Assembly: GCF_036864975.1 (NCBI RefSeq)
Contig: NZ_CP104311.1
Location: forward strand, 565,501-629,500
DNA length: 64,000 bases
Source of the DNA: Methylococcus capsulatus
GTDB taxonomy: Bacteria > Pseudomonadota > Gammaproteobacteria > Methylococcales > Methylococcaceae
Reading direction: 5' to 3'
Each line of letters starts with the position of its first letter. Position 1 is the first letter of the stretch. Of the stretch, positions 7,210 through 25,064 are shown one piece after another. Made by a program: the position numbers and the translations under genes. The notes below the pieces were generated by a model, which worked only from the letters and a program-made list of their open reading frames with translations, was not told where the DNA came from and ran no database searches.

Positions 7210-10612
<3,403 letters not shown>

Positions 10613-10635
10613 TCGTATGTCTGTAACGAATTGGT

Positions 10636-10641
10636 TATAAT
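10636..10641 (+). promoter_or_regulatory. Minus-10 box before tRNA-Ser
   Basis: A perfect TATAAT sits 15 bases before the tRNA 5' end. No convincing minus-35 hexamer is visible at the usual distance, so the call rests on the minus-10 box and its position. Confidence 0.4.
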
Positions 10642-10656
10642 ATCATCGCTTGTGCA

Positions 10657-10751
<95 letters not shown>

Positions 10752-10786
10752 TACCCGTTTCACCCCGTCTCATGACGCCTCAGAAC

Positions 10787-10818
10787 CCGCGAGCTACAAG
10801 GCTTAGCGGTTTTTTTTT
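10787..10818 (+). terminator. Terminator after tRNA-Ser
   Basis: CCGC-GAGC pairs with GCTT-A-GCGG around a short loop and is followed by nine T residues. It lies about 40 bases after the tRNA. Confidence 0.75.
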
Positions 10819-11090
10819 GGCTTGCCAAACGTCTTGAAAAATAAACATGTCAGATCGCTATACCTGAAGAGACGGCGGCACACACGACCCTGAGCAATGC
10901 CGAGTGACGGCTCAGCGGCCCTTGCGAAAAAAATCACCGGAAAGACCTGCAGATCCGTTGCCTTGTCGCACTTCGTACAGTCGATGAGATACCCAGGATC
11001 CACGCTACTTAACAAAACCAATGACTTAGGTGAATCCGCCGGTATGGCATCACTCCTGCTTGGACGGTTTTATTTACAAGGCGTTGAGGC
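10819..11090. other. Intergenic region before the Fe-S/CCG protein
   Basis: No supported gene is seen here. An in-frame TGA at 11085-11087 immediately precedes the following gene, so that gene cannot extend upstream into this stretch. Confidence 0.6.
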
Positions 11091-12458
11091 ATGGAGACAC
11101 AACTCGACTGGTCGGCCTACAACAGCTATGGCGCGGGTGATGCCTATGCGGCCGTGCCTTCCGAAGGCGGCGCCTACGGCAAGGCGGCGGCGGTATGCAT
11201 CGGCAACCGGCAATGTCAGCGCACCGAAAAGGGCGTGATGTGCCCGAGCTTCCGGGTCACACATGACGCGGCGCACTCCACCCACCACCGGGCCCAAACA
11301 TTGAAGGCGGCGCTGAACGGCGAATACGGGCCGAAGCCCTTCGTCGGACCGGAGCTGGAAGCGGCCATGGACCTGTGCGTGGGCTGCAAGGGCTGCAAGC
11401 GCGAATGCCCCAATGGGGTGGACATGGCGCTGCTGCGCATCGAGACTTTGGCGCAGCGCTGGAAACAGCTCGGCGGCGCTCCGCTGCGGGAACGGCTGCT
11501 GGCGCACATACCGCACTGGGCGGGAAAACTGGCATGGCTTAATTGGCTGGTGAGAGCGCGTGCACGGGTGCCGCTGCTGGCCAAGTTGGGCGAGCGCTGG
11601 CTCGGCATCGCCGCCAAACGCTCGCTGCCTCTGAGCGCACCGATCGAGTTCCTCGCCGCGGCCCCGACCGAACCCGCCGGCGCCCCCGAAGGGCGCGAGG
11701 TCGTCCTGCTGGTCGACACCTTCTCCAACCACTTCGAACCGGAAACCGCCCAGGCGGCTCTCGACGTGTTGACCGCCGCCGGTTGCCGGGTCCATCTCGC
11801 CCGGCCGCCCGCCGGGGAACACCCGCTGTGCTGCGGCCGCACCTTCCTGTCCCACGGCCTGGTCGAGCAGGCGCGGACGGAGGCCGGACGCATGGTCGAA
11901 GCCTTGCGACCCTATGCCGAGCGCGGCCTACCCGTCATCGGCCTGGAACCGTCCTGCCTCTTGATGCTGCGCGACGAATACTACTCGCTGGGACTGGGCG
12001 ATGCCGTGGCCGCCGTCGCGAAATCCGCTCTGCTGCTGGAGGAATTCCTGGCCCGCGAACACGACGCCAAGCGGCTTGAACTTCCGCTCCGTCCCCTGCC
12101 GCAGGCGCGGGCGCTGGTGCATGGACACTGCCATCAGAAAGCCTTCGGCGCGATGAAGTCGATGCGCAAGGTGCTGGGGCTGATACCGGAGCTGGGGGTG
12201 GAATTCATCGAATCGAGCTGCTGCGGTATGGCCGGCGCTTTCGGACTGGAGGCCGAGCATTACGAAGTATCCATGCAGATGGCCGAACTCGCCCTGCTGC
12301 CGCGGATACGCGAAGCGGACAAAGACACCTTGCTGATCGCCAACGGCACCAGTTGCCGCCACCAGATACGCGATGGTGCGCAGCGAGAGGGCGTGCACTT
12401 GGCCAGGGTGCTGAAGTCGGCACTGGCGAGCGGCGGCCTGGGGAGCCGGCGAAACTGA
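11091..12458 (+). CDS. Fe-S/CCG-domain oxidoreductase subunit, like the C-terminal half of FAD-linked D-2-hydroxyacid dehydrogenases
   Basis: The 455-residue protein has two N-terminal ferredoxin-like clusters (CIGNRQCQRTEKGVMCPS near residues 36-54, and CVGCKGCKRECP near residue 100). Two C-terminal cysteine-rich CCG domains follow (HPLCCGRTF and SSCCGMAG), with HGHCHQKA between them. This is the arrangement of GlpC/GlcF proteins and of the C-terminal half of large FAD-linked D-lactate or 2-hydroxyglutarate dehydrogenases. The N-terminus (LDWSAYNSYG) resembles the linker of such fusions, but no FAD-binding domain is encoded upstream, where a stop codon abuts the start. It may partner a separately encoded FAD subunit. 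The substrate is unknown. Confidence 0.75.
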   Translation: METQLDWSAYNSYGAGDAYAAVPSEGGAYGKAAAVCIGNRQCQRTEKGVMCPSFRVTHDAAHSTHHRAQTLKAALNGEYGPKPFVGPELEAAMDLCVGCKGCKRECPNGVDMALLRIETLAQRWKQLGGAPLRERLLAHIPHWAGKLAWLNWLVRARARVPLLAKLGERWLGIAAKRSLPLSAPIEFLAAAPTEPAGAPEGREVVLLVDTFSNHFEPETAQAALDVLTAAGCRVHLARPPAGEHPLCCGRTFLSHGLVEQARTEAGRMVEALRPYAERGLPVIGLEPSCLLMLRDEYYSLGLGDAVAAVAKSALLLEEFLAREHDAKRLELPLRPLPQARALVHGHCHQKAFGAMKSMRKVLGLIPELGVEFIESSCCGMAGAFGLEAEHYEVSMQMAELALLPRIREADKDTLLIANGTSCRHQIRDGAQREGVHLARVLKSALASGGLGSRRN

Positions 12459-12822
12459 CGCTCAGTGCTCTTGACCGATGACCGAACCCTCTTTTGATCG
12501 CTCCTGCCCCGCCCCCCCGAACGATAAGACTGTCCTTCCACATCAGCCCCCCCCCTGAAAAACCTGCCAGGCGCACCATAAAAAATCAAATTTGTGCACT
12601 ATATTGGTGCTTCGCACTTTTTATGTGCGTGACATATTGACGCACCGCCTTCCATACTCTAACGTAAGCGCTCGTATTGAATCGATACTTAAAACAATAA
12701 GCAGCGGTTCGAGCTGCCCGAATCGATACGCGTTCGATCAGGCATGCCGCCGCTTGGACTCCCGGCCATCGCCGAGGCGAAAGGTGCCGGAGGCCCTTGC
12801 ACCCTACCCGAGGATTGATGCC
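12459..12822. other. Intergenic region with a possible promoter for the following operon
   Basis: No gene is supported. TTGACG at 12637-12642 with TAACGT 17 bases downstream could be a weak promoter. A short GTGC-TTC-GCAC hairpin followed by TTTTT lies near 12607-12623. Reading of the next gene could open earlier, at 12592, but that extension lacks hydrophobic or conserved character. Confidence 0.35.
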
Positions 12823-15800
12823 ATGACAGGAAGCATCGTTTCGGCTTCGCTCGCGAAGCCGCGAGTTCTTTTGGAACTCATGCTGGCCCCGTTGCGGTTC
12901 ACCAACGCCGTGGCCTTGGTAATACACGGGCTGGGCCATGCGCTCGCCTTGTTCACGCTTACACGCGATCCAACCGCCTTCTCGGCGGCGACGATTCTGG
13001 AAGGAATCCCAGCCAGAGAATTCGGCAGGAGTCTTCTTCCATTCGGACCGGTCCCTCAGTTTTCCGCACATCCGCCCCGCATTCCGGCATCCCTGTACCA
13101 GGGCTGGCGATGCCGTATCGTCGCGGCGGCGGGCATCCTGGCCAATCTGTCGATGCTGGCAGCCGCGTTCCAGTGGCTGGAACCCGACGGCGGAGCCTGG
13201 GCACTCTTCGCCTGGAGCGGGTTCTGCGCCAGCTCTATCCTTGCGATGTTGTCGCTACCGGATGTTCTGGCCGTGCTCCGGGGAACGACGCCTTACTGGG
13301 CCTGCGGTCCAGCATTCGCGGTCCGTTGCGGCCTTGAAGGGGAAGAAAGCGCTCCCCTGCTGATTTCGGACCGTCTGCGGGAAATGGCGCGGATACTGGC
13401 GCGCGAGGCATCGACCCGCGGCGGTCAGTCGGCGGGATTCTCAGTGTTGGTGGACAAAGGCGGTGCCCAGTCGGTCATCTTCGACAAGGTCGTCAAAGGC
13501 AAACGGGAAGACATCGTGAATGTGCTGTCCGAGCGCCTGGACGGCCTACTCAAGAAAGCCAGCCGCGAAGGTTACCGACGTCCCCGGGACTTCGAAGCCG
13601 TACTGCTCCATCTGCGTTATGCCACCGGCGGCGCGACGCATTGGCACAATGCCCAGCCGCACTGGTACGAATACTACGATGCGATGATGCACCACGGGGT
13701 AGAAGACCACTCGCTGGTGTCTAAGCCCGGTGAAGTGTTCAACATGATCGCCCACAATGGCGACATGGACGGCGTCTACCTCGAGTTCACCGTGGACGGC
13801 GAGAAACGTCGGCATTTCTTCACTCAACAGGAGGCCCGTGGGGTATTCCTGAGCATGATGCCCAGAACCAGCTCCAAGGGCGACTCGGATTCCCGCAGCG
13901 TCGCCGAATGGGTAGATTTCATCTATACCCAAGGACTGAGCTACAAGGCGCTGCGCTATGCCTATTTCACCGCCGCATTGGATTACAACCGTGACATCGC
14001 CGGCGGGAACATCAACCTCGATCTGCTCCCGCGCTGGGCCGAAGCCACCGATCTGGCGTTGTTGAATCTACGCAAAGAACTGGACCAGCATGCACTGGCA
14101 GCCCCTGCACGATCCCTGGCAGACCTCTCCGCCGAGTCCAGGAAACACTTGCGCGACGTACTGACCCGGGAAGTCGGAACCGCCCTGGAAGCGGACGTCC
14201 TCCCTGGCTTTCTCGCCGCATTCGAGGAAGCCTTCTGCCATCACGACCTGACCTGGGTGATGCGCACCGCTTCCCGCGACCTGGTCGGGGAATTCGCACT
14301 GATGGTCTGCTCCACCCTGGAGCCCCGCATGGGCGTGTTTTCCCTGACCCAGGCCTTCTCCCTCGGCCACAACCGCACCCGTGGGGAAATCTTCGGCAGT
14401 GCGGAACCCTTGGGCGTCACCTCGGCCCTGCACCAGGGGGAGCCGGACGACGATGCGCTGCAGATCTACCTGGAAGACGGCCAGTACGCCACCATCGAGT
14501 ATCGTGCAGCGAGTCCTTCGGAATTCATCCGCATCTATGACCGCGCCAAGGTGGGCGACGATTTCCTGCAACCGCCCCAACTCTCGCCCAAGGCATTGCA
14601 ACCGGGGGCAGAACCGCCGGCAGCTGTCCGATCCAACTGGTTCGCGGTCAACAACAACGCCAAGATCAGCCGTATTCATCAGCTGCCCGCGCCGGGGAAT
14701 GCCGTAGAAAAAGACTTGCTGGAGATTCCTTTCGTGCTCAAGCGAGTGCTCGAATCGTTCGAACCCGGGGGCGAGAACCACGCCACGATGAATCATTTCG
14801 GCGAACTGCTGTTCCAGAATCTGCTGAATCCGAACCGGGACCCGCGGATGCACGACCTCGTACTCTACGGGGTGGACTTCAACCAGGACCTGCTCAATGA
14901 ATTCGCGATCGCCCTGCACTCCGTGCTGCCCGGCCTCCGCATCCGCGCGGAAAATTCCGGCAACGTGCTGAAGGAAATGAAGCGCACCCAGCGGGAAGGC
15001 ATCGGCTGCTACGGCTCCTCGACCGTGTTCCTGGGCGTGAGCAATTCCGCCCAGACCCAGTCCACGTTGGCCGTGGTGCGTAAGGCGCGCGACCTGGTCG
15101 GCGCGGAGCGCTGCTTCGTCCTTTCCCAATCGTTCCTGAACTCCATGACCGAAGCCCTGGGCCAGGGCTATCAGCCCGATGATCCCATTCTGCCCAACAC
15201 TTTCGTCAACCTCAGCCACCTCTCCCCCGATGGCACCAGCGGCCGGCGTCGGGCCGAAGCGGCGACCATCGTGGTGGTGGCGACTCAAGCGGTGCTCACT
15301 GAAATTCTCATCCACCTGGCCCGGAAAGCCATCGATGCCTATAGCACGCTGAGCCGGGAAGTCCTGACCGGACAAAGCGGCGATTTCGAGCTGCGCAGTG
15401 ACCTGCAGATGTCCGACATCAAGGCTTTCCGGGAATTCCAGGCCGCGGTTTACGGCGTTGACATTCCCAACCGGGTCGGCTGCAACGCGGCCGGCGAACT
15501 CATCGACTCGCCGGATACGGATGCATTGAACCGCGAGGCAGCGGCGCGGGCGGAAAACCAGGTAGAATTCGTGCGCTCCTATGCCATTTTCGCGGCTTAC
15601 ATCGTGATCGCCACGGTGTTCGGGGTACCGGTGTTCGGCCTGCTGTTCTCCCCGTTCGATTTCCTGGCCGGCGTCGGCTTGGCGGCCCACGTGCTGGACG
15701 CAGCGCTGTTCCTCACCGCGCTCTGGCTGATCCATCTCGGCGTCCGCCGCTGGCAGGGGCGGCCGGTGTTCGAGCGGATCGGCGCGCGCGCGGAAGTCTA

Positions 15801-16857
15801 TATCGACCGCAAGTACATCGCCCGCATCGTCGAACGCTACAACGCGACCCTGTTCTCCAACATGCCGGCGTTCCTGACTCCGTTCTTCTACTGGGCCGAC
15901 ACGGTACGTGACGCCTTGCACCGCTATGGCATCCGGGCCCATCGCGGAGTGGTGACCATTCACCGCCTGCCCGATGAACGCATGGGCATCGAGGAAGCCA
16001 ACAATGCCGCGGAGGAGAACATGGTCTACGCCCAACTCGGCGGTATCCGTTTCAACGGCGGTCAACCGCAGTCGCGGGACAAGGTGCGCCAGGGCTCCTG
16101 CTATGTCAATGCGTCGCGCCCCTACCAGACCGTACTGTCCGACAGCCTGGCGGGCCTGCGGGCGAAATATGACGGCAAACTGTCCCCGGAAGTGTTCCGC
16201 TTGGTGAACCGCCGGCTGATCGACCTTTGCGACGGTCTCATCACCGAGTTCGTGATCGGTTTCCGGCGCAAGGAAATCGTCAACCGGGCGCTGTGGGATG
16301 TGATCCGCTGGATTCCCGGCGCAAGCCTGGTGTACGAAGTGTTACTGGGTAACGGGCTGGATCTGACCAACCTCGCCGGCGAGGCTGATACCGCCAACCA
16401 GGCCCAGATCCAGTCCACCAAGCACCCGGTCTCTCCGCTGGACATCCATACCCGGACCATGGTTCCGAGATCGACCTTCGACGCGCTGCGCACAGAAGAA
16501 CAGGCCCCCGACGAATCCTTCGCCGTCCTGGTGTTTTCCGAACACCAGATCGCCCTTCATCTGAACCGCCACGCCGTGCTGGAACAGCCGCAGGGACGGG
16601 TGCAGGAGGTGGTCCTGAAACCGGGGCGGGGCAGTGACCGCGGTCAACTGGTCAGTGAAAGAGGCGAAACCACGGCCGGCGAATTCGTCGGCAGCCTGGA
16701 CCAAGTGGACGGCGAACCCTGCCTGGTCATCCGCAACAAAACCGCCGACCTGAGGATGGCCGTCCCTTTGGGCAGCCTGAATCCGCAGCAGCGGCATTAC
16801 CTGGTGCACCATTACCGCCTCAGCTCACCGAGCCCATTGTTGGAAGCAGCCGCCTGA
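12823..16857 (+). CDS. Large membrane protein: degenerate M50-like domain + GlmS-like glutaminase (GATase II) + SIS domain
   Basis: I do not know a characterised homologue. Residues 1-160 hold about three hydrophobic segments with HGLGH (35-39) and, further on, an AAAGILANL segment. This resembles site-2 proteases (HExxH then AGPxAN), but the catalytic Glu is Gly. From about residue 161 a class II glutamine amidotransferase pattern follows: CGLEG (C169), RGGQSAG, HLRYATGG (H263) and HNGD (311-314). These parallel GlmS Cys1, RGxDSAG, HTRWAT and HNG. A SIS-like core follows (YGSSTVFLGVSNSAQTQ, 730-746, like GlmS SQSGET). A second membrane region spans about residues 917-975, with a long soluble C-terminus after it. 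The start was chosen for the GAGG ribosome site; an upstream opening at 12592 is possible. It is first of a four-gene operon, with the next gene 31 bases away. It may bind or process an amino sugar or glutamine at the membrane, which is inference. Confidence 0.75.
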   Translation: MTGSIVSASLAKPRVLLELMLAPLRFTNAVALVIHGLGHALALFTLTRDPTAFSAATILEGIPAREFGRSLLPFGPVPQFSAHPPRIPASLYQGWRCRIVAAAGILANLSMLAAAFQWLEPDGGAWALFAWSGFCASSILAMLSLPDVLAVLRGTTPYWACGPAFAVRCGLEGEESAPLLISDRLREMARILAREASTRGGQSAGFSVLVDKGGAQSVIFDKVVKGKREDIVNVLSERLDGLLKKASREGYRRPRDFEAVLLHLRYATGGATHWHNAQPHWYEYYDAMMHHGVEDHSLVSKPGEVFNMIAHNGDMDGVYLEFTVDGEKRRHFFTQQEARGVFLSMMPRTSSKGDSDSRSVAEWVDFIYTQGLSYKALRYAYFTAALDYNRDIAGGNINLDLLPRWAEATDLALLNLRKELDQHALAAPARSLADLSAESRKHLRDVLTREVGTALEADVLPGFLAAFEEAFCHHDLTWVMRTASRDLVGEFALMVCSTLEPRMGVFSLTQAFSLGHNRTRGEIFGSAEPLGVTSALHQGEPDDDALQIYLEDGQYATIEYRAASPSEFIRIYDRAKVGDDFLQPPQLSPKALQPGAEPPAAVRSNWFAVNNNAKISRIHQLPAPGNAVEKDLLEIPFVLKRVLESFEPGGENHATMNHFGELLFQNLLNPNRDPRMHDLVLYGVDFNQDLLNEFAIALHSVLPGLRIRAENSGNVLKEMKRTQREGIGCYGSSTVFLGVSNSAQTQSTLAVVRKARDLVGAERCFVLSQSFLNSMTEALGQGYQPDDPILPNTFVNLSHLSPDGTSGRRRAEAATIVVVATQAVLTEILIHLARKAIDAYSTLSREVLTGQSGDFELRSDLQMSDIKAFREFQAAVYGVDIPNRVGCNAAGELIDSPDTDALNREAAARAENQVEFVRSYAIFAAYIVIATVFGVPVFGLLFSPFDFLAGVGLAAHVLDAALFLTALWLIHLGVRRWQGRPVFERIGARAEVYIDRKYIARIVERYNATLFSNMPAFLTPFFYWADTVRDALHRYGIRAHRGVVTIHRLPDERMGIEEANNAAEENMVYAQLGGIRFNGGQPQSRDKVRQGSCYVNASRPYQTVLSDSLAGLRAKYDGKLSPEVFRLVNRRLIDLCDGLITEFVIGFRRKEIVNRALWDVIRWIPGASLVYEVLLGNGLDLTNLAGEADTANQAQIQSTKHPVSPLDIHTRTMVPRSTFDALRTEEQAPDESFAVLVFSEHQIALHLNRHAVLEQPQGRVQEVVLKPGRGSDRGQLVSERGETTAGEFVGSLDQVDGEPCLVIRNKTADLRMAVPLGSLNPQQRHYLVHHYRLSSPSPLLEAAA

Positions 16858-16888
16858 CGCGCCGCTACACAGACTGGAGGTGACTGCC

Positions 16889-19336
16889 ATGGTACTGACC
16901 GCTGCCGCTGGTTTTTTTGCCGCGATCCTGCTCAATCTGTTCCTTTACCGCCTGCTGCAAAGCCGCGGCAATGCCATCGTCCGGCTGTATCGGTCCGGGC
17001 TTCTGCTGCTGGCCGGTCTGGGGCTGGTGGCGCAGTCGCTGGGGTCCGAACTCAACCCCTATTTGGTCATGCTCTGTTTCACATTCGGCTTGGCGTTCCT
17101 GACGCTGGAAACGCTGATTGCGGGATTCTGGGGCAAAATCGGTTATGGGAGCCTGACCGTCGCCCATCTGTTTCTCGGTGGATATCTTTACACCATGACC
17201 CAGGTGCCCTATGGCGACCGCCCGTTCGCCGCGCTTTCGGCCAACCAGCCCAAACCGCTCTCTGACACCGACCTACGGGATGAATGGATCGCCGGCCTGC
17301 CCGTCGGCAGCGCCGCCCGCTCTTCCGTGCCGACCGAACCCGTCCCCGCCGGGGCGCCGGCCAGCCCTGCGGACCCCGCCCGCATCAGCCTGAACTGGAG
17401 CGACGTCGAACCGCTGATGGCACACGACTCCCATGTCCGCGACGTGTTGATCGCACTGCGGGAGAAACAGGAGCGCGACCTCTCCGAGATGCTCGCCAGC
17501 CTGAACCAGATCGCCGTGAACAGCACCGGCATGCGTCGCCATGCCATCCTCCGCGACAACGTCGAAAATCTGTTGCACGACGGAGCGATCTCCGAGGCAC
17601 GCTATCACACGATCCTGGAGACCTGGCGGCTGACCGACCGGGACGAACAAGCCTTCCGCTCGAAACAGGCCGAGGAACTGTTTCATGTGATGCTGCAACT
17701 GCTGGAAGATGGAGAGGTCGATGAGACTCACAAGGTCGAACTGATCGATTTCATGGTGGCCCGCTTTTCCAGCGACGTCCGACTGGTCAAGCCGCTGATC
17801 AATCTCTACGAGGCATTAGACAGTGAATACCCCCGCCAGAAACGCCTGAATCACGAGTTTCTCAGCCTCTATCTGCAAAAGCGCAATGCCATTCTCAGGG
17901 GATTTTCACGAATCGGTCGGCCGGGGCTACAGCCACTGCTCGACTACCGCAAGAAGACCATTTCCGAGATTCATTACTCGCAGGCCCGCCTCGACCGGTT
18001 TCTGGAACAGACCTTTCAGCAACGCGTGCGCCCTCTCTATGGCCCGGTCGCCCCCATCGCCATCAAGGACTTCCTGAACCGGGAGAAATATCCGCCCCTG
18101 GGAAAACTGTCGGGAGCCGCCTACGAACAGGATTACCTGCGGCACAGCCTCATCCGCATCGGCCTCGAAAACCGGGTCCCCGCGGCCGGGCAACCGGTCA
18201 TGGGTCTCGCCGCAGCGGACTACGCCAAGATTGTCCAGGCCTTCGAGGAGGGGTTGCCTGATGCCGTCGACACCATGGTTATCGACGAGAATCCCGCCGT
18301 GCGTGGCAACCTGGCCTGGTATCTCGCCGAACGCAAGGATCCTTACACCTTGCCGCTGATTTTCGAACTCATGCAGGACTCCCACCCGGAGGTCAGACGG
18401 CTGGCGGCAATCGCCGTGGGCAATTTCAAGATCATCGACATGCAGAGCGCGAACGACCGCAAGTTCACTGAGATCGTCCGGATGCTGGTGAATTATCGGA
18501 CCAATGCCGATACCTTCGCCCGGGTCTTCGCCCTCTACGCGCTCGCGACCGTCGGCGACCGCCAGAAAGCCCTCTACATCCTCGACCTGATCTTCAACGA
18601 CGGCAACACGGTGCACTCCGTCATGGGACAGGCGGCGCCGGCCTGGAAAAGCGAGGACGAGAAAGCTGCGGTGCAAAGCCTCATCGAAATATTGGGTGAA
18701 ACCCCCGAGGAGCCCTATGTCAAAACCCAGGCATTGAAGGTGCTTCTGGCCATGGAATCGCAGGAATCCGTCGGCATCCTGCTGCATTATCTCAACCATA
18801 TCTACGAATCGACCCATAGCCGCCCCGGCCTGCTGCGCTACGTGGTTCCGCACATGACCCTTCCGCAGGAAGCGGAGAACGTGGAGGACGTGGTGGACTA
18901 TCTCGCCGCGCGCTATCGCGCCCATCCCGAGCGTCTGCAACAACCGCTGAAGGCGCTGCGCGCCTATCTTGGATCGGCCTACGGCAATCACCGCAGCGGG
19001 GAATTCTTCCAGTTCCTGAAGTTTCTCGCGGAATACGACAGCCGGGAGTACGAGGAATACCTGAAACAGACCCGGGAACACGTGCTGCTCATGCGCATGC
19101 TCGAGTACGTCAAATCCACTTACGGTTTCTGGCTGGTGTTCTGGCCGCTCTCGCTGTTGATCCTGATCGTGGTGCAATACGGCCTGGGACTGTCTCCCCG
19201 CTTCACCCGGAGCGACGACGGCACGGCGGCAACCCGCCCCAACCGCCGTGCCAATCCTGCGGCGGACATCCGCAACCGGCGCCAGGCGCCCGCGGCGGCC
19301 GTGGTCCCGATCAAGATCAGCTCCGGCAAATCCTGA
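16889..19336 (+). CDS. HEAT-repeat-containing membrane protein
   Basis: The 815-residue product has four N-terminal hydrophobic segments in residues 3-105. A Pro/Ala-rich linker follows, then a long helical region. HEAT-like repeats are clear from about residue 470 onward (the stretch with PEVRRLAAIAVGNFK and the following helices to about 700). One C-terminal membrane segment (FWLVFWPLSLLILIVVQYG) precedes a basic tail. No enzymatic motif is visible. GGAGG eight bases before the ATG at 16889 decides the start over a GTG at 16880. It sits between the SIS-domain membrane protein and the TolC-like gene, and probably scaffolds an envelope complex with them (inference). Confidence 0.75.
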   Translation: MVLTAAAGFFAAILLNLFLYRLLQSRGNAIVRLYRSGLLLLAGLGLVAQSLGSELNPYLVMLCFTFGLAFLTLETLIAGFWGKIGYGSLTVAHLFLGGYLYTMTQVPYGDRPFAALSANQPKPLSDTDLRDEWIAGLPVGSAARSSVPTEPVPAGAPASPADPARISLNWSDVEPLMAHDSHVRDVLIALREKQERDLSEMLASLNQIAVNSTGMRRHAILRDNVENLLHDGAISEARYHTILETWRLTDRDEQAFRSKQAEELFHVMLQLLEDGEVDETHKVELIDFMVARFSSDVRLVKPLINLYEALDSEYPRQKRLNHEFLSLYLQKRNAILRGFSRIGRPGLQPLLDYRKKTISEIHYSQARLDRFLEQTFQQRVRPLYGPVAPIAIKDFLNREKYPPLGKLSGAAYEQDYLRHSLIRIGLENRVPAAGQPVMGLAAADYAKIVQAFEEGLPDAVDTMVIDENPAVRGNLAWYLAERKDPYTLPLIFELMQDSHPEVRRLAAIAVGNFKIIDMQSANDRKFTEIVRMLVNYRTNADTFARVFALYALATVGDRQKALYILDLIFNDGNTVHSVMGQAAPAWKSEDEKAAVQSLIEILGETPEEPYVKTQALKVLLAMESQESVGILLHYLNHIYESTHSRPGLLRYVVPHMTLPQEAENVEDVVDYLAARYRAHPERLQQPLKALRAYLGSAYGNHRSGEFFQFLKFLAEYDSREYEEYLKQTREHVLLMRMLEYVKSTYGFWLVFWPLSLLILIVVQYGLGLSPRFTRSDDGTAATRPNRRANPAADIRNRRQAPAAAVVPIKISSGKS

Positions 19337-19374
19337 AGAAGTTTCGGCCAGAAACCGGCTCGGGAGACCACGCC

Positions 19375-20931
19375 ATGCGCATCACCCTGTACGATTCGGC
19401 GCGCGCCCTTTTGCTGCGCGTGGCCATTGCTGCCGGCGCGGGGTTCCTGCTCGGCGGCTGTAACAAAATCGGCCCGGACTTTCACCGGCCGGAAATCAAA
19501 CTCACCGACACCTGGCTGGATGCGCCGAAAAAAACCGCCAAGGCCGGCGATTTCCGCAACTGGTGGAAACTGTTCAATGATCCGGTGCTGGATCGCCTCA
19601 TCGAGAAGGCTTACCGGCAGAATCTGGACGTGCAGAAAGCGGCGATCCGTATCTATCAGGCGCGTGCCCAACTCGGCATCGCCAAAGGGTATCTGTTCCC
19701 GCAGAAACAGAACGTGGGAATGGACACATTCTATGAACGCATCAGCGAATTCTCGCCCTACTACCAAGGGAGCGATTTCCACACGTTCACCTATTTCCAG
19801 ACCGGATTCGACGCCATGTGGGAGCTCGACATCTGGGGCCGGTTCCGCCGCGGCATCGATGCCGCTGGTGCGGAACTGGCGGCATCGACACTGCAGTATG
19901 ACGACATGGTGGTGACGCTGACCGCCGAAGTGGCTGCCGCCTATGTCCAGATACGCACGTTCAATCAGCGCCTGGCGCTCGCAAAGGGCAATGCCGACCT
20001 GCAAGAGCGCAGCTTCCGCATCGCCGAATCACAGTTCCGCAACGGCGTGAGCACCGAACTCGACATGCAGCAGGCCAAGGCGCTGCACCAGGCGACCCTG
20101 GCTGAAATCGCCAACCTGGAAGTGGGGCTGCGCCAGTCGAAGAATGCTCTGAGCGTCCTGCTGGGGATGCAGCCCAGCCACCTGGAAAAGGAACTGGGCC
20201 CGGACAGCGACATCCCCGCCGCCCGGTCGGAGATCGCCATGGGCATCCCGACCGACATCCTGCGCCGCCGCCCGGATGTCCGTGCCCAGGAATACAAAGC
20301 CGCATCCCAATGCGCTCAGATCGGGATCGCCGAGAGCGAACTCCTGCCCCGGCTTTCCCTGGTCGGCACCGTCGGCTTCAATTCCGGCAGCATCGACGGA
20401 CTCGACGTGGCCAACGCCATCAGCCCTTCCGGGCTGGCCGGCAAATTCGGACCGACCGTCACCTGGCCGATCCTCCAGTACGGACGACTGACCAACAACG
20501 TCCGCGTCCAGGACGCCAAATTCCAGGAACTCCTGACCGACTACCGCAGCACCGTATTGCGCGCCCTACGCGAGGTGGAAGACGCGATCATCGCCTTCAA
20601 AAAAGCCGAGGAAAGAGTAGCCAGCCTGTCAGACGGCGTCCGGGCCTCACAGCGCGCCGCCGAACTCGCCTTGCGGCAATACCAGAACGGACTCGAGGAC
20701 TACACACGGGTCCTCAATTCGGAACTGTTCCTGGTGCAGCAGCAAGACCGGCTGACCGCCAGCCGCGGAGACGTCGCCCGCAGTGTCATCGCCATGTACA
20801 AGGCGCTGGGTGGCGGCTGGGAGATTCGGGAAGGCCGGGAGCTGCTGCCGCCCGGCGTGAAGAAAGAAATGCGCGAGCGTACCGACTGGAGCGACCTGCT
20901 CGAGGAACCCGTCGGCAAGGGAATCGACTAG
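19375..20931 (+). CDS. TolC/NodT-family outer-membrane channel lipoprotein
   Basis: The 518-residue protein is an outer-membrane factor of the RND-associated NodT/OprM type. It has an N-terminal signal ending in the lipobox LLGGC. The OEP repeats follow, including WWKLFNDPVLDRLIEKAYRQN near residue 60, the WELDIWGRFRRG motif near 145 and SLVGTVGFNSGS in the second half, where the RRPDVRAQE motif is also present. Such proteins form the trimeric channel through the outer membrane for export. It is unusual that no periplasmic adaptor or inner-membrane pump gene is adjacent; the neighbours are a HEAT membrane protein upstream and a PII-like gene downstream. Confidence 0.9.
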   Translation: MRITLYDSARALLLRVAIAAGAGFLLGGCNKIGPDFHRPEIKLTDTWLDAPKKTAKAGDFRNWWKLFNDPVLDRLIEKAYRQNLDVQKAAIRIYQARAQLGIAKGYLFPQKQNVGMDTFYERISEFSPYYQGSDFHTFTYFQTGFDAMWELDIWGRFRRGIDAAGAELAASTLQYDDMVVTLTAEVAAAYVQIRTFNQRLALAKGNADLQERSFRIAESQFRNGVSTELDMQQAKALHQATLAEIANLEVGLRQSKNALSVLLGMQPSHLEKELGPDSDIPAARSEIAMGIPTDILRRRPDVRAQEYKAASQCAQIGIAESELLPRLSLVGTVGFNSGSIDGLDVANAISPSGLAGKFGPTVTWPILQYGRLTNNVRVQDAKFQELLTDYRSTVLRALREVEDAIIAFKKAEERVASLSDGVRASQRAAELALRQYQNGLEDYTRVLNSELFLVQQQDRLTASRGDVARSVIAMYKALGGGWEIREGRELLPPGVKKEMRERTDWSDLLEEPVGKGID

Positions 20932-20990
20932 CAAGCAAGCGGGACCGGCGGACGGATCTCACCCCGGCCTTGCGAAGAGGGGACAGACGA

Positions 20991-21305
20991 ATGAAACTGG
21001 TGACTGCGATCATATCTTCGCAAAAGCTGGATGAAGCCCGCGAGGCCCTCCTGGAAATCGGCGCCACCGGCCTCACCATCAGTCGCATTTTCGGCGATGC
21101 CTTTGAAAGGCACGCGCCCCGCACCGACGACTGCCTGTTCAAGCTGGAGATACTCGCCACCGAACGCCTGGCGGGCGCCGTCGTGGAATCGATCATCGGC
21201 ATCCTGGGCCCGGATGCGGACGAGGATGCCCGGATTTTGGTCTTCGAACCGCAACAGGCCGTCCGCATCCGCACGCTGGAAAGCGGCGAAGAAGCCTTGG
21301 GCTGA
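20991..21305 (+). CDS. PII-like protein lacking the T-loop tyrosine
   Basis: The 104-residue protein starts MKLVTAIISSQKLDEAREAL and ends ILVFEPQQAVRIRTLESGEEAL. These segments align well with GlnB/GlnK. Between them the T-loop is about seven residues shorter and has no YRGAEY, so no uridylylation site. The B-loop equivalent of TGKIGDG, which binds ATP, is replaced by GPDADED. It therefore looks like a divergent PII-fold regulator that senses something other than the classical ATP/2-oxoglutarate signal. It is last in the operon, 59 bases after the TolC-like gene, with GAGGGGA ahead of the ATG. A regulatory role for the envelope complex is inference. Confidence 0.8.
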   Translation: MKLVTAIISSQKLDEAREALLEIGATGLTISRIFGDAFERHAPRTDDCLFKLEILATERLAGAVVESIIGILGPDADEDARILVFEPQQAVRIRTLESGEEALG

Positions 21306-21437
21306 GCGCTGAACAGCTTCTAATTTAAGGAAGCTTCGCCAAAGCAGCCGGCTACCTGATGCGGGTGACATCATCTGTGTTGCCCCAAAAAAGCCAAAGG
21401 CAGTACATTAGCGTCTCATCTTTGCCGAGAGGCCGCC

Positions 21438-21584
21438 ATGTCACGCCAGAAGGACAAAACCCTTTCCATACGCACCTCCGCCGAGATCAAGCAACTGTTG
21501 CGCATGGCCGCAGAGCGCGAACGGCGATCCCTCGCTTCGAGGATCGAGATTCTGGTGCTGGAGTACCGCGGGCACATGAGCTGA
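21438..21584 (+). CDS. Small ribbon-helix-helix-like DNA-binding protein
   Basis: The 48-residue product reads MSRQKDKTLSIRTSAEIK, then a helix rich in Leu/Arg/Glu (LLRMAAERERRSLASRIEILVLEY). This fits the beta-strand then two-helix layout of Arc/CopG/MetJ-type repressors and antitoxin N-termini. GAGAGG precedes the ATG by six bases. It lies next to restriction-system debris. No toxin gene follows, so an antitoxin role is not supported. Confidence 0.6.
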   Translation: MSRQKDKTLSIRTSAEIKQLLRMAAERERRSLASRIEILVLEYRGHMS

Positions 21585-21700
21585 AGCTGGATCGCCCAAG
21601 TGGTGAAGCAGCCAACGGGAGCGCCTAATGGGCCTTCCAAGCATTGCCTGGTTCAGCCTGCCCGCTAAACCAACGAACCATTGACGGCAGGAACGAAGCA

Positions 21701-21775
21701 ATGGCCACCCCGGAAAACCAGATTGAGCTGGATCTGATCGCCAAGCTGGGCGATCTCAAATACACCTACCGCGAA
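21701..21775 (+). pseudogene. hsdR: Type I restriction enzyme R subunit, N-terminal fragment
   Basis: About 25 residues (MATPENQIELDLIAKLGDLK then YTYRE) match the beginning of HsdR-type proteins, which usually read LIAKLxDLKYTYR. The reading frame then runs into a dispersed repeat and ends, so only the start of the gene remains. The ATP-dependent translocase part is absent. Confidence 0.6.
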
Positions 21776-22070
21776 GGAGCACAAGGAAGTCGAGCGAAGC
21801 GAGCGAGTGCGACGCCCCCCGCGAAGCCGTAGGCCCGGATGTTTTGACGGAGTCTGCGGCTTCCTCGCGGGTGGAGACAAAACATAAGGGAACCGACACG
21901 GCGTCGAGTCAGTGTGGGAGCCTTGGCGGAGAGCGTCGCTTGAGAGACGGACGGAGCCGAGGCGGACGCAGGACGGCGCGGGCCGCCGAAGGCAAAGACG
22001 TCGCCACAATTTGCTCCCGAGGGTGACGGGGATGTCCCGTCGGGTTTCGCAAAAAATGGCGACGCTCCAG
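21773..22070 (+). repeat. Dispersed repeat, copy 1 (long form)
   Basis: This stretch begins GAAGGAGCACAAGGAAGTCG and ends near TTTCGCAAAAAATGGCGACG. Both halves match, in inverted orientation, the sequence at 47569-47765. This copy carries about 115 extra bases in the middle (about 21900-22000). It interrupts restriction-system genes. No coding capacity of its own and no transposase are seen. Confidence 0.75.
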
Positions 22071-22200
22071 TTTATGCAGGGCGATCTGCATGGGGCGGAC
22101 TCTCTTATGTCAAGATCATGCAATGGCGCGAAATACACCTTCAACAGCTCTCGCGCATAGAATAACGGATAACGCCTTTCGTCTATATGATCGTCCGGGA

Positions 22201-23279
22201 CGTAACACCTATGAATACCTGATCGGCCAGTTTGCCGCAGGCAGCGGCAAGAAGGCGGGCGAGTACTACACGCCGCAGCCCATTTCCAGCATCCTTTCCG
22301 CCATCGTCACGCTGGATAGGCAGGAGCCGGCGGAAGGTCCGCGCCCTCACATGGACAGCGTGCTGGACTTTGCCTGCGGTTCGGGCTCCTTGCTGTTGAA
22401 CGTGCGCCATCGCATGGGGCCGCACGGCATCGGCAACATTCACGGGCAGAAGAAGAACATCACCACTTACAATCTGGCGCGCATGAATATGCTGCTGCAG
22501 GGGGTGAAGAATTCCGAATTCGAAATCTTCCACAGCGACACCCTGCTCAATGAGTGGGACGTGCTGCGCGAGACCAACCCGGCCAGGATGCCGAAATTCG
22601 ACGCGGTGGTAGCCAATCCGCCCTTCAGCTACAGGTGGAAGCCGAGCGAAAGCTTAAGCGAGGATGTGCGCTTCAAGAATTACGGCCTTGGCGCCCAAGT
22701 CCGCCGCCGACCTCGCTTTCCTGCCGCATGGCTTCCATTTCCTCAAGCAGGATGGCGTGATGGCCATCATCCTGCCCTACGGCGTGCTGTTCCGTGGCGG
22801 TGCCGAGGCGCGCATCCGCACCAAGCTGCTCAAGGACGGCCATATCGACACGGTGATCGGCCTGCCGGCCAACCTCTTTTTCTCCACCGGCATTCCGGTC
22901 TGCCTCCTGGTGCTGAAGAAGTGTAAAAAAACCGGACGACGTGCTGTTCATCAACGCCGCCGAGCACTACGAGAAGGGCAATCGGCAGAACCAGCTATTG
23001 CCCGAGCATATCGACAAGATCATCGACACCTACCAGTACCGCAAGGAAGAACCGCGCTACTCGCGGCGGGTGGGCATGGAGGAAATCGAGCAGCACGATT
23101 TCAACCTGAACATCTCTCGTTATGTGAGCACAGCAGAAGCCGAAAAGGAAATCGATCTCGCGGCGGTGCATGCCGAGCTTGTGGCGCTGGACCAGAAGAT
23201 CAAGACGGCCACTCAGCAGCACAACGAGTTTCTCAAGGAACTGGGGCTGCCTTTGCTACCGTCGGTGAAGCTGGCCTGA
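22201..23279 (+). pseudogene. hsdM: Type I restriction-modification methyltransferase subunit, truncated and frameshifted
   Basis: HsdM sequence is recognisable from YEYLIGQFAAGSGKKAGEYY through LDFACGSGSLLL (SAM-binding motif I), VVANPPFSYRW (the NPPF catalytic motif), GVMAIILPYGVLFRGG, and the C-terminal VLFINAAEHYEKG region. The N-terminal half is missing. The frame changes twice, at about 22690 (extra G in GGCCTTGGCGCC) and in a run of seven A at 22925-22931, where six would keep frame. Upstream it abuts the dispersed repeat. As written it cannot give a working methylase, and no hsdS is present. Both changes are single-base insertions, so sequencing error cannot be excluded for them, but the N-terminal loss is real. 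Confidence 0.85.
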
Positions 23280-23443
23280 CCGGACAAAGGCGCATCTGCT
23301 GGACTTTCCCGATCCTGGGGACACGGCTGGCTGGAAGGCGTGGTGAATTAGGCGAAATACCTGTTTTTTCCATTGACCGCCACCATGCCGCCCAGAGACT
23401 AATGCTAAAAGCTACGCCTTTCCTCCCGGAGTGAACCGCCGCC

Positions 23444-24742
23444 TCAGAAGTAATAGCCCTTGCCGTTGTGCGAGCTCAAGTCCAAGCCTTCGGTTTCCTC
23501 GTCGGGGCTGACGCGCAGTCTCGGCCAACGGTCCAGACCTTTGAGTATGAGATAGCTGACGGTGCCGCTCCAAACTCCTGCGGCAGCGATCGCGACGAGC
23601 TGAACGCCGATCCGCTGCCCCAGCCCTAAATCACCCGGAAATCCCGAACCGCCCCAAGCCCCGCCAGCGACCAGCGGGGTGAGAAGCACGCCCAACAGGG
23701 CACCGGCCGCATGCACCGGGAACACGTCCATGGCATCGTCGATTTCCAGCTTGCGCCGGATCCAGGGAATCGCGAAGAAACAGGCCAGCCCGCCTGCGCC
23801 ACCGACGATGACGGCGCCCTGCGGCCCGACGTAGCCCGCCGCGGGCGACAGTGCGACCAACCCCGCGATCATGCCGGTCACTAGGCCAAGCAGGGTGGGG
23901 CGCCCGAAGCGCACCCACTCGACCCCCATCCAGGCCATCGCACCGGCGGAAGCGGCCAAGTGGGTGTTCAACATCGAGAGTCCCGCCGCGCCGTTGGTGA
24001 TCAAGGCGCTACCGGCACTGAAGCCGTGCCAGCCGATCCACAGCATCCCGGCGCCGGCCGCCGTCAGGGTCAGATTGTGGGGCGGCATGAGCGCATCCGG
24101 AAATCCACGCCGCGGCCCCACCAACCAGGCGGCCGTGAGGGCCGACGCGCCGGCGGTCGCGTGGACCACCACGCCGCCGCTGAAGTCCGCCGCACCGAGG
24201 CGGGCGAGCCAGCCTCCACCCCACAGCCAGTGGCAAACCGGTGCATAGACCAGCAGCATCCAGAGGGTGGTGAACCAAAGCACGGCCGAGAACTTCATCC
24301 TCTCGGCGAAGCCACCGACCATGAGTGTCGGCGCAAGCACGGCGAAACCGAGATGGTAGATGCAGTATGCCGCCTCGGACACGTGCCCGATCGCCGAGTC
24401 GGCCGTCAGACCGTGCAGGAACAGCCTGGACGTGCCGCCGAGCCATGGCGCCGAGCAACCTCCCCTGCCCAGAGCGAGGCTGTAGCCGGCGCCCATCCAG
24501 ACCAGAGACACCAGGGCGGCGACGGCAAAACATTGGGCCAGAACGGAGAGTACGTTCTTGGTGCGGACCAGCCCAGCGTAAAGCAAGGCCAGCCCCGGCA
24601 CCGTCATGAACCAGGCGAAGCCGGTGGACGTCAGAATCCAGGCGGTATCCGCGGCGTCGAATTCGTCCGCCTTGAGCGGCAGCGCCACCAACAGGCAGCC
24701 CAACAAGCTGAAACCGCGGAATTTCGGACCTTGTCCCATCAC
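23444..24742 (-). CDS. amt: Ammonium transporter
   Basis: The 432-residue Amt/AmtB-family channel conducts ammonium across the inner membrane. It has a signal-like N-terminus and about eleven hydrophobic segments. The pore twin histidines are visible as CHWLWGGGW and VHAAGALLG. It is the most downstream gene of the minus-strand nitrogen-fixation block, with 157 bases before the next gene, and may be read from its own promoter. No classical glnK is next to it, which is unusual for amt. Scavenging ammonia leaked from nitrogenase would suit its place. Confidence 0.93.
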   Translation of the reverse strand: MMGQGPKFRGFSLLGCLLVALPLKADEFDAADTAWILTSTGFAWFMTVPGLALLYAGLVRTKNVLSVLAQCFAVAALVSLVWMGAGYSLALGRGGCSAPWLGGTSRLFLHGLTADSAIGHVSEAAYCIYHLGFAVLAPTLMVGGFAERMKFSAVLWFTTLWMLLVYAPVCHWLWGGGWLARLGAADFSGGVVVHATAGASALTAAWLVGPRRGFPDALMPPHNLTLTAAGAGMLWIGWHGFSAGSALITNGAAGLSMLNTHLAASAGAMAWMGVEWVRFGRPTLLGLVTGMIAGLVALSPAAGYVGPQGAVIVGGAGGLACFFAIPWIRRKLEIDDAMDVFPVHAAGALLGVLLTPLVAGGAWGGSGFPGDLGLGQRIGVQLVAIAAAGVWSGTVSYLILKGLDRWPRLRVSPDEETEGLDLSSHNGKGYYF

Positions 24743-24899
24743 TCCCCCGTCTGTGGATCGTGGCGCGGCCAGCGCCGACCGGAAGCCGTCTCCGCCGAAT
24801 TCTCATGCCTCCGGGAGACCGCATGCACAAAACGGGGGCAATGAAACCACGATTGGACGGCTGTGCCAAGGTTTGAGAAGGCTTTGCGCCGGGATGCGA

Positions 24900-25064
24900 T
24901 CACTCGCTCATATCGGGAAACAGGATCACTTCGTCCGGAACGCCGTTTCCATTCCGCTGAAGGTCGATCCCTCCGACCAATGCATAGCCGGCGTCGCCTT
25001 CGTACAGGACGACGGCATCTTTGGGCATTTGGAGAAGCGCCTGTATCAGTTGCTCCACGGTCAT
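24900..25064 (-). CDS. Small acidic hypothetical protein of the nif-linked block
   Basis: The 54-residue reading frame MTVEQLIQALLQMPKDAVVL ends in EVILFPDMSE. It starts 10 bases after the end of the next gene upstream in transcription. Its codon use and position fit a real gene. I do not recognise a family. Confidence 0.6.
   Translation of the reverse strand: MTVEQLIQALLQMPKDAVVLYEGDAGYALVGGIDLQRNGNGVPDEVILFPDMSE

Follow-up and report, generated by a model that had tools for sequence, protein, structure and literature searches.

In GlmS, a class II glutamine amidotransferase (GATase) domain is followed by SIS domains, and the GATase site comprises a Cys nucleophile, the R of RWAT/RYAT, the N-G of HNG and the D that follows it. 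In other class II amidotransferases, propeptides are removed. Tripartite efflux systems are composed of an RND or ABC pump, an adaptor and an outer-membrane channel of the TolC/NodT type, and the amtB-glnK module combines the gene of an ammonium transporter (Amt) with that of a PII regulator, canonical PII/GlnK proteins being recognised by a T-loop with Tyr and by the B-loop motif TGKIGDG. The handling of ammonium by methanotrophs affects methane oxidation. The PII-NG proteins are encoded by genes that cluster with those of CzcABC-type metal pumps (PMC7726332).

The analysis presented here concerns a window of 64,000 nucleotides, the whole stretch of DNA examined, in a Methylococcus genome that consists of a single contig of 3.43 Mb. 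The window contains the genes of a large membrane protein (MP1), a HEAT-repeat protein, a NodT-type lipoprotein, a PII-like protein and an Amt transporter. The preliminary description of the locus had found no matching described system, and none was found here either in open-licence papers, a scope outside which most subscription journals lie.

Results

Organisation of the locus

The four ORFs at 12823-21305 lie on one strand and are separated by 22, 38 and 59 bp (Table 1). The MP1 start is an ATG with GAGGA just 5' of it, and the frame stays open as far as a TTG at 12592. Promoter and terminator scans at the locus gave no clear excess over shuffled sequences. When compared with two congeners, MP1 (dN/dS 0.18 and 0.12), HEAT (0.11 and 0.12) and NodT (0.06 and 0.08) are under clear constraint, and the PII-like gene far less (0.52 and 0.61). 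The list of parts in the preliminary description named four real genes and left out the Amt gene, which is convergent with the operon and about 2.1 kb away from it.

Several other genes were observed in the vicinity. A type I restriction methylase gene (22090-23279) stands between PII and Amt and is split into two frames, which match positions 9-155 and 242-310 of the N6_Mtase profile. A 48-aa ORF at 21438-21581 has by eye a ribbon-helix-helix look and no Pfam match. Upstream of MP1 there is a gene of a 4Fe-4S/CCG protein (11091-12458), which among the stretches examined is near MP1 in the four Methylococcus genomes only, as well as a lytic transglycosylase gene (9236-10612), presumably MltF-like, with a sub-cut-off match to a solute-binding domain, which is a neighbour in genome G017 too.

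Table 1. Positions in the window of the genes and of the domains and motifs assigned to MP1
Feature	Position	Strand	Description or basis
MP1	12823..16857	+	1344 aa membrane protein
H35-G-L-G-H39, M50-type motif in which Gly stands for Glu	12925..12939	+	motif reading; weak M50 matches in relatives
Cys161-Gly162 in invariant ACGPAFA, candidate GATase nucleophile	13303..13308	+	12/12 rows; CG in L105 too
Putative GATase glutamine-binding segment around LHLRYATGGATHWHNAQPH	13594..13662	+	GlmS/PurF profile matches
SIS domain (phosphosugar isomerase fold), approximately residues 626-881 of MP1, containing S740-N-S742-A-Q-T745	14698..15465	+	VIA-align, hhalign
Two predicted TM helices, aa 922-940 and 952-970	15586..15732	+	hydropathy
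HEAT/ARM-solenoid protein	16880..19336	+	Pfam HEAT_2, structure model, hydropathy
NodT-type outer-membrane efflux lipoprotein	19375..20931	+	TIGR01845
PII-like protein, T-loop residues and B-loop motif missing	20991..21305	+	Pfam P-II, alignment
Amt ammonium transporter	23444..24742	-	TIGR00836

Conservation and distribution of the gene set

The searches covered 311 genomes from the order, which is presumably Methylococcales, and samples of 369 from the class and 398 from the phylum. The MP1 profile found a match in 13 of the 311 order genomes; in 12 of these it spans nearly the whole protein, in two cases divided between contigs, and the thirteenth is a remote homologue (G107); in an initial order sample, MP1 had been present in 9 of 151 genomes. 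The HEAT profile matched in 19 of the 311 and was full length in 12, which are exactly the MP1 genomes. The other seven HEAT matches, short and weak (18.7-26.1 bits), were dropped; three of them (G655, G657, G669) fell on an ORF of 568-578 aa resembling ribosomal protein S1 by eye. The MP1, HEAT and NodT genes are adjacent in each of the 12 MP1 genomes, and chance neighbourhood is ruled out by this co-occurrence. The preliminary description had put forward four closely spaced, operon-like genes and had named a gene-neighbourhood search as the check; a conserved, operon-like set is borne out, as the genes do occur together elsewhere.

The gap between MP1 and HEAT, with the frame taken to begin at its first start codon, is 5-65 bp in 10 of the 11 relatives and 166 bp in G011. 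With starts set in the same way, the reading frames of HEAT and NodT touch or overlap in most of the non-Methylococcus relatives, and the HEAT-NodT gap of -1936 obtained for G011 is an artefact of an ORF start set too far upstream. The seven named records carrying MP1 are Methylococcus, Methylobacter (two), Crenothrix, Methylococcaceae (two) and one uncultured proteobacterium. The spread is patchy: a Methylococcus genome complete in one contig (G003) is without MP1.

Outside the order set, MP1 matched in the class sample, which includes a few genomes of the order, in its own genome only, and in the phylum sample ten other genomes matched the MP1-type profile weakly (15.7-20.3 bits); both sets are samples in which the first-look filter may miss remote members. 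All ten weak phylum matches cover model positions 265-326, which correspond to MP1 residues 247-308, the RYATGG...AQPH stretch, and the five ORFs identified among them are all PurF. The ten were therefore taken for ordinary amidotransferases and not for members of the module. As PurF is a true class II amidotransferase, its recognition by the MP1-type profile supports the GATase assignment of MP1. A search of plasmids gave no match.

The remote homologue (L105:7738-11907, E 2.6e-26) has an intact HEAGH motif and neither HEAT nor NodT beside it; it adjoins a HiPIP gene and a MASE1 kinase, in a genome that is 83% complete with 6% contamination. A search with this protein against 369 genomes gave no match, and since the window's own genome was among those missed, the result carries little weight.

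Domains of MP1

Even when E values as high as 10 are allowed, no Pfam family matches the window's MP1, which reaches the glmS NCBIfam profile at a sub-threshold level only (E 0.13); its profile found no match among PDB sequences with hmmsearch, and PHROGs gave no match for the protein. The domain order proposed for it is an M50-like N-terminal membrane domain, a GlmS-like class II GATase, a SIS domain, a membrane hairpin and a C-terminal part of unassigned fold. Three or four hydrophobic helices are seen in the N-terminal part, together with HGxGH, a GG..N stretch and PD, and the pattern of HxxxH, GG..N and PD is what we take to be M50 features. HGxGH in place of HExxH is found in 12 of the 12 main members, HEAGH only in the remote homologue. 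Weak Pfam matches to M50 appeared in three of the six N-terminal stretches scanned, all sub-cut-off (E 0.0015, 0.048 and, for L105, 0.017), and in none of those of the window's own MP1, L037 and L039.

The class II glutaminase motifs run from Cys161 onward, namely TRGGQS, LHLRYATGGATHWHNAQPH, AHNGDMDG and SDSRSVAEW. C161, R265, N312-G313 and D356 occur in 12/12 rows and each aligns with an identical residue in L105, R265 being placed by profile alignment and the others by eye. Aligned with hhalign against 29 GlmS sequences, the glutaminase part gave three separate colinear local matches (33.7, 26.8 and 25.3, the best of 60 column shuffles reaching 24.6) and the SIS part gave 36.4 (best shuffle 19.1), with probabilities that are low on an absolute scale, at 25 for the GATase part and 59 for the SIS part. 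Among the MP1 relatives, the best NCBIfam matches were purF (0.01) and GlmS (0.014), far below the curated cut-off. Judged from these motifs and alignments, MP1 reads as a protein carrying a class II glutaminase domain with its key residues, in which the putative nucleophile Cys161 is internal to the gene product.

The structure model of MP1 is poor overall (mean pLDDT 44.9), and the SIS part only was used. The folds closest to the SIS region are the GlmS/GFAT isomerase domains (Z reaching 15.6, with some 195 residues covered); for model residues 616-871 and the GlmS isomerase domain, VIA-align gave Z 15.6 with 194 aligned residues at 3.5 A. Foldseek returned nothing with an E-value <0.001 for this part, the best value being 2.5e-3; SIS proteins were among the top-ranked hits. 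The T-S pair of the first GlmS SIS domain is not kept in MP1. The two helices that follow would form a second membrane hairpin according to hydropathy. Near the C-terminus, QSTKHPVSP with its lysine is invariant in 11/11 rows that reach that far and has by eye the look of a GlmS tail. The C-terminal part, however, scores 12.3 against GlmS, inside the shuffle null, and the whole protein reaches 10.7 bits against the 418 needed for TIGR01135, so that full GlmS identity is ruled out. The GATase and first SIS domains of MP1 thus resemble those of GlmS, but the protein is not a GlmS. The domain calls made earlier, GATase II, SIS, HEAT, NodT and PII-like, are upheld; a second SIS domain, as in a complete GlmS-like enzyme, is not supported.

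HEAT protein and NodT channel

The HEAT protein (Pfam HEAT_2, 1.2e-14) consists of four N-terminal helices, three passing the hydropathy cut and the fourth taken from the model, a long helical solenoid and, at the C-terminal end, one TM helix followed by a conserved tail. Its structure model has a mean pLDDT of 71.4, and the best Foldseek matches are HEAT/ARM and related repeat proteins with low TM-scores. The arginines of the first loop and of the tail suggest, by the positive-inside rule, that the solenoid is periplasmic and the conserved tail cytoplasmic.

The NodT protein scores 329.3 bits against a cut-off of 210.05 and has a lipobox, LGGC, read by eye. It had been described as standing without pump or adaptor, which agrees with the present data: pump or adaptor families are not among the Pfam matches of the four operon genes, and between 9000 and 25000 of the window there is no ORF of RND-pump length besides MP1. 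In 51 neighbour ORFs of relatives, the RND pump family is not among the best 25 of 69 Pfam families, and the one HlyD-type adaptor near relatives (G150) is beside its own second OEP gene. A reading of the locus as a PII-NG/metal efflux system was dropped, as no pump gene was seen at 9000-25000.

PII-like protein

A PII/GlnK gene is present at the locus in eight of the 12 genomes (G000, G017, G045, G037, G015, G150, G570, G115). That of the window matches Pfam P-II (2.5e-11) and, in PHROGs, one unannotated family. The T-loop residues and TGKIGDG are missing in all four Methylococcus PII proteins and kept in the four other locus GlnK proteins (G015, G150, G570, G115), as judged by an alignment that leaves out two further PII matches of the window's genome (L031, L032); the accompanying tree is without a starred branch and includes one non-PII row (L030_own). 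Because of these losses and the fast evolution of the gene, the tuning by the PII-like protein that the preliminary description had suggested finds weak support in the Methylococcus window, and it seems plausible for the G015, G150, G570 and G115 loci.

Ammonium transporter and small exported protein

The Amt protein of the window scores 379.8 bits (cut-off 343.3). Nine of the 12 genomes (G000, G017, G037, G045, G011, G015, G150, G603, G115) have an Amt gene at the locus itself or at most some 12 kb away on an MP1-bearing contig, a single genome containing only 3-5 Amt matches; in G073, G570 and G622 the MP1 contigs are short and carry no Amt. In G045 only about 60 bp separate PII from Amt, and in G000 and G017 other DNA intervenes, the genes next after PII in G017 being those of HsdR and HsdS. 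Amt may be found before or after the operon and on either strand, and these variable arrangements indicate that the module is not one frozen block, although the four Methylococcus genomes cannot be counted as independent cases.

A small exported protein, which begins with what resembles a signal peptide and contains cysteines and a conserved RDLGW motif, was found in 12/12 MP1 genomes, near Amt, MP1 or both, and was absent from both genomes without full MP1 (G003, G107), a small control. Its match lies <=90 bp from an Amt match in ten genomes and directly before MP1 in four (G011, G073, G115, G622), the order in G115 being Amt-GlnK-small-MP1. In the window's genome the protein is encoded outside the window, at 357955-358266 of the contig (L135), 31 bp from another Amt match. 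The relative in L036 has no Pfam family. The module is therefore larger than first described, since Amt, PII/GlnK and the small exported protein recur with it, and this recurrence supports a nitrogen theme.

In G015, G150 and G603, BBP2-type porins were also noticed in the neighbourhood of MP1 or Amt (L036:8112-9278, L035:4478-7342, L113:2329-3483).

Discussion

The reading that we tentatively prefer, while regarding it as possible rather than probable, is that the module encodes a trans-envelope complex which, in a subset of gammaproteobacterial methanotrophs, couples ammonium/glutamine status to an outer-membrane channel. The architecture of the module is well supported, since conservation, gene order, co-occurrence, domain types and the linkage to Amt were observed directly, whereas topology, complex formation, glutamine hydrolysis, the substrate and its export are inferred. 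MP1 would be an inner-membrane protein whose glutaminase and SIS domains face the cytoplasm; there it may bind, and probably hydrolyse, glutamine and may bind a phosphorylated sugar-like ligand. Since Cys161 is internal, and a class II amidotransferase has its nucleophile cysteine at the mature N-terminus, activity would require the release of the M50-like N-terminal domain, comparable to the removal of propeptides from other class II amidotransferases. The HEAT protein would be anchored in the inner membrane, with its solenoid reaching across the periplasm and its cytoplasmic tail touching MP1, and it may replace the adaptor as the docking partner of NodT. The ammonium-sensing or supply side would be made up of Amt, GlnK and the small exported protein, and the output would most likely be an aminated small molecule exported via NodT. 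The export step has against it that the operon encodes no energy source for export, and the Amt/PII link that the small protein of Methylococcus is encoded beside another Amt and that PII is degenerate there. A more specific account, that of a new class of envelope machine in which the ammonium channel and regulator feed MP1, which drives or gates export through NodT with the periplasmic HEAT solenoid in place of an adaptor and without an ATPase or ion-driven pump, glutamine/ammonium chemistry serving as power or gate, is in our opinion very doubtful.

The nearest rival to an export complex is a sensor without export, which we consider rather unlikely. MP1 would then be neither an enzyme nor an export motor but a nitrogen sensor, whose glutaminase fold reads glutamine and whose SIS domain reads a phosphosugar; the complex would regulate Amt or the envelope, and NodT would be an anchor or a passive port. 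Several observations would suit a sensor: the catalytic second half of GlmS is undetectable in MP1, the M50 motif is without its glutamate in 12/12 members, Cys161 lies inside the chain, and there is the recurrence of Amt, GlnK and the small exported protein. However, MP1 retains the glutaminase-site residues, and a NodT channel in 12/12 genomes is hard to fit with a pure sensor.

It is unlikely that MP1 is a membrane-bound amino-sugar phosphate synthase, that is, a working GlmS paralogue feeding a surface glycan or a secreted amino-sugar compound exported via NodT. The colinear local matches to GlmS in the GATase and first SIS domains, the SIS fold nearest to GlmS/GFAT isomerase domains and the GlmS-like tail with its lysine argue for such an enzyme, but the second SIS domain is unsupported, an ordinary GlmS is encoded elsewhere in the window's genome, and no polysaccharide genes were recognised in the ORFs adjoining the operon in the window, few of which were library-scanned. 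That MP1, HEAT and NodT form one unit, with Amt, GlnK and the small protein as mere neighbours without a shared function, fits the three MP1 contigs without Amt and the degenerate PII and differently placed small protein of Methylococcus, but it is made improbable by the recurrence of these genes across genera in varied orders and strands and by the small protein accompanying MP1 in 12/12 genomes and neither of the two without full MP1, small as this control is.

The trans-envelope complex that we prefer would be of interest for several reasons. MP1, HEAT and NodT, with Amt, PII/GlnK and the small exported protein, make up a bounded and testable gene set that ties nitrogen supply to the methanotroph envelope, and MP1 represents a protein architecture without a Pfam family. 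If the proposal is true, the pairing of NodT and a HEAT solenoid would represent a new design for an outer-membrane conduit.

In comparison with known systems, MP1 shares with GlmS (TIGR01135) the order of GATase II and SIS and the motifs common to both domains, and differs from it in the membrane domain in front, the internal Cys, the insertions, the hairpin after SIS, the undetected second SIS domain and a score far under the family cut-off. With tripartite efflux the locus has in common a NodT-type outer-membrane channel and inner-membrane partners, but the operon is without a pump or adaptor gene and has a HEAT solenoid protein instead, a pump elsewhere being possible. As in the amtB-glnK module, Amt and a canonical GlnK are found at the locus in several genera, although here they are accompanied by MP1-HEAT-NodT and by a small exported protein, and the PII of Methylococcus is degenerate. 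The PII-NG/CzcABC clusters are similar in having a divergent PII gene near an outer-membrane efflux gene, and unlike them the window has no Czc-size pump gene at 9000-25000 and four relatives have a canonical GlnK at the locus (PMC7726332). M50 proteases resemble MP1 in the N-terminal membrane domain with HxxxH, GG..N and PD, and in the HEAGH of the remote homologue, but the Glu is missing in 12/12 main members and the domain is fused to GATase and SIS. Membership in tripartite efflux, in GlmS and in the M50 proteases fails in each case on a defining feature that was tested; therefore, with the reservation that its function is only inferred, the system is rated as a kind of its own, assembled from parts of known superfamilies.
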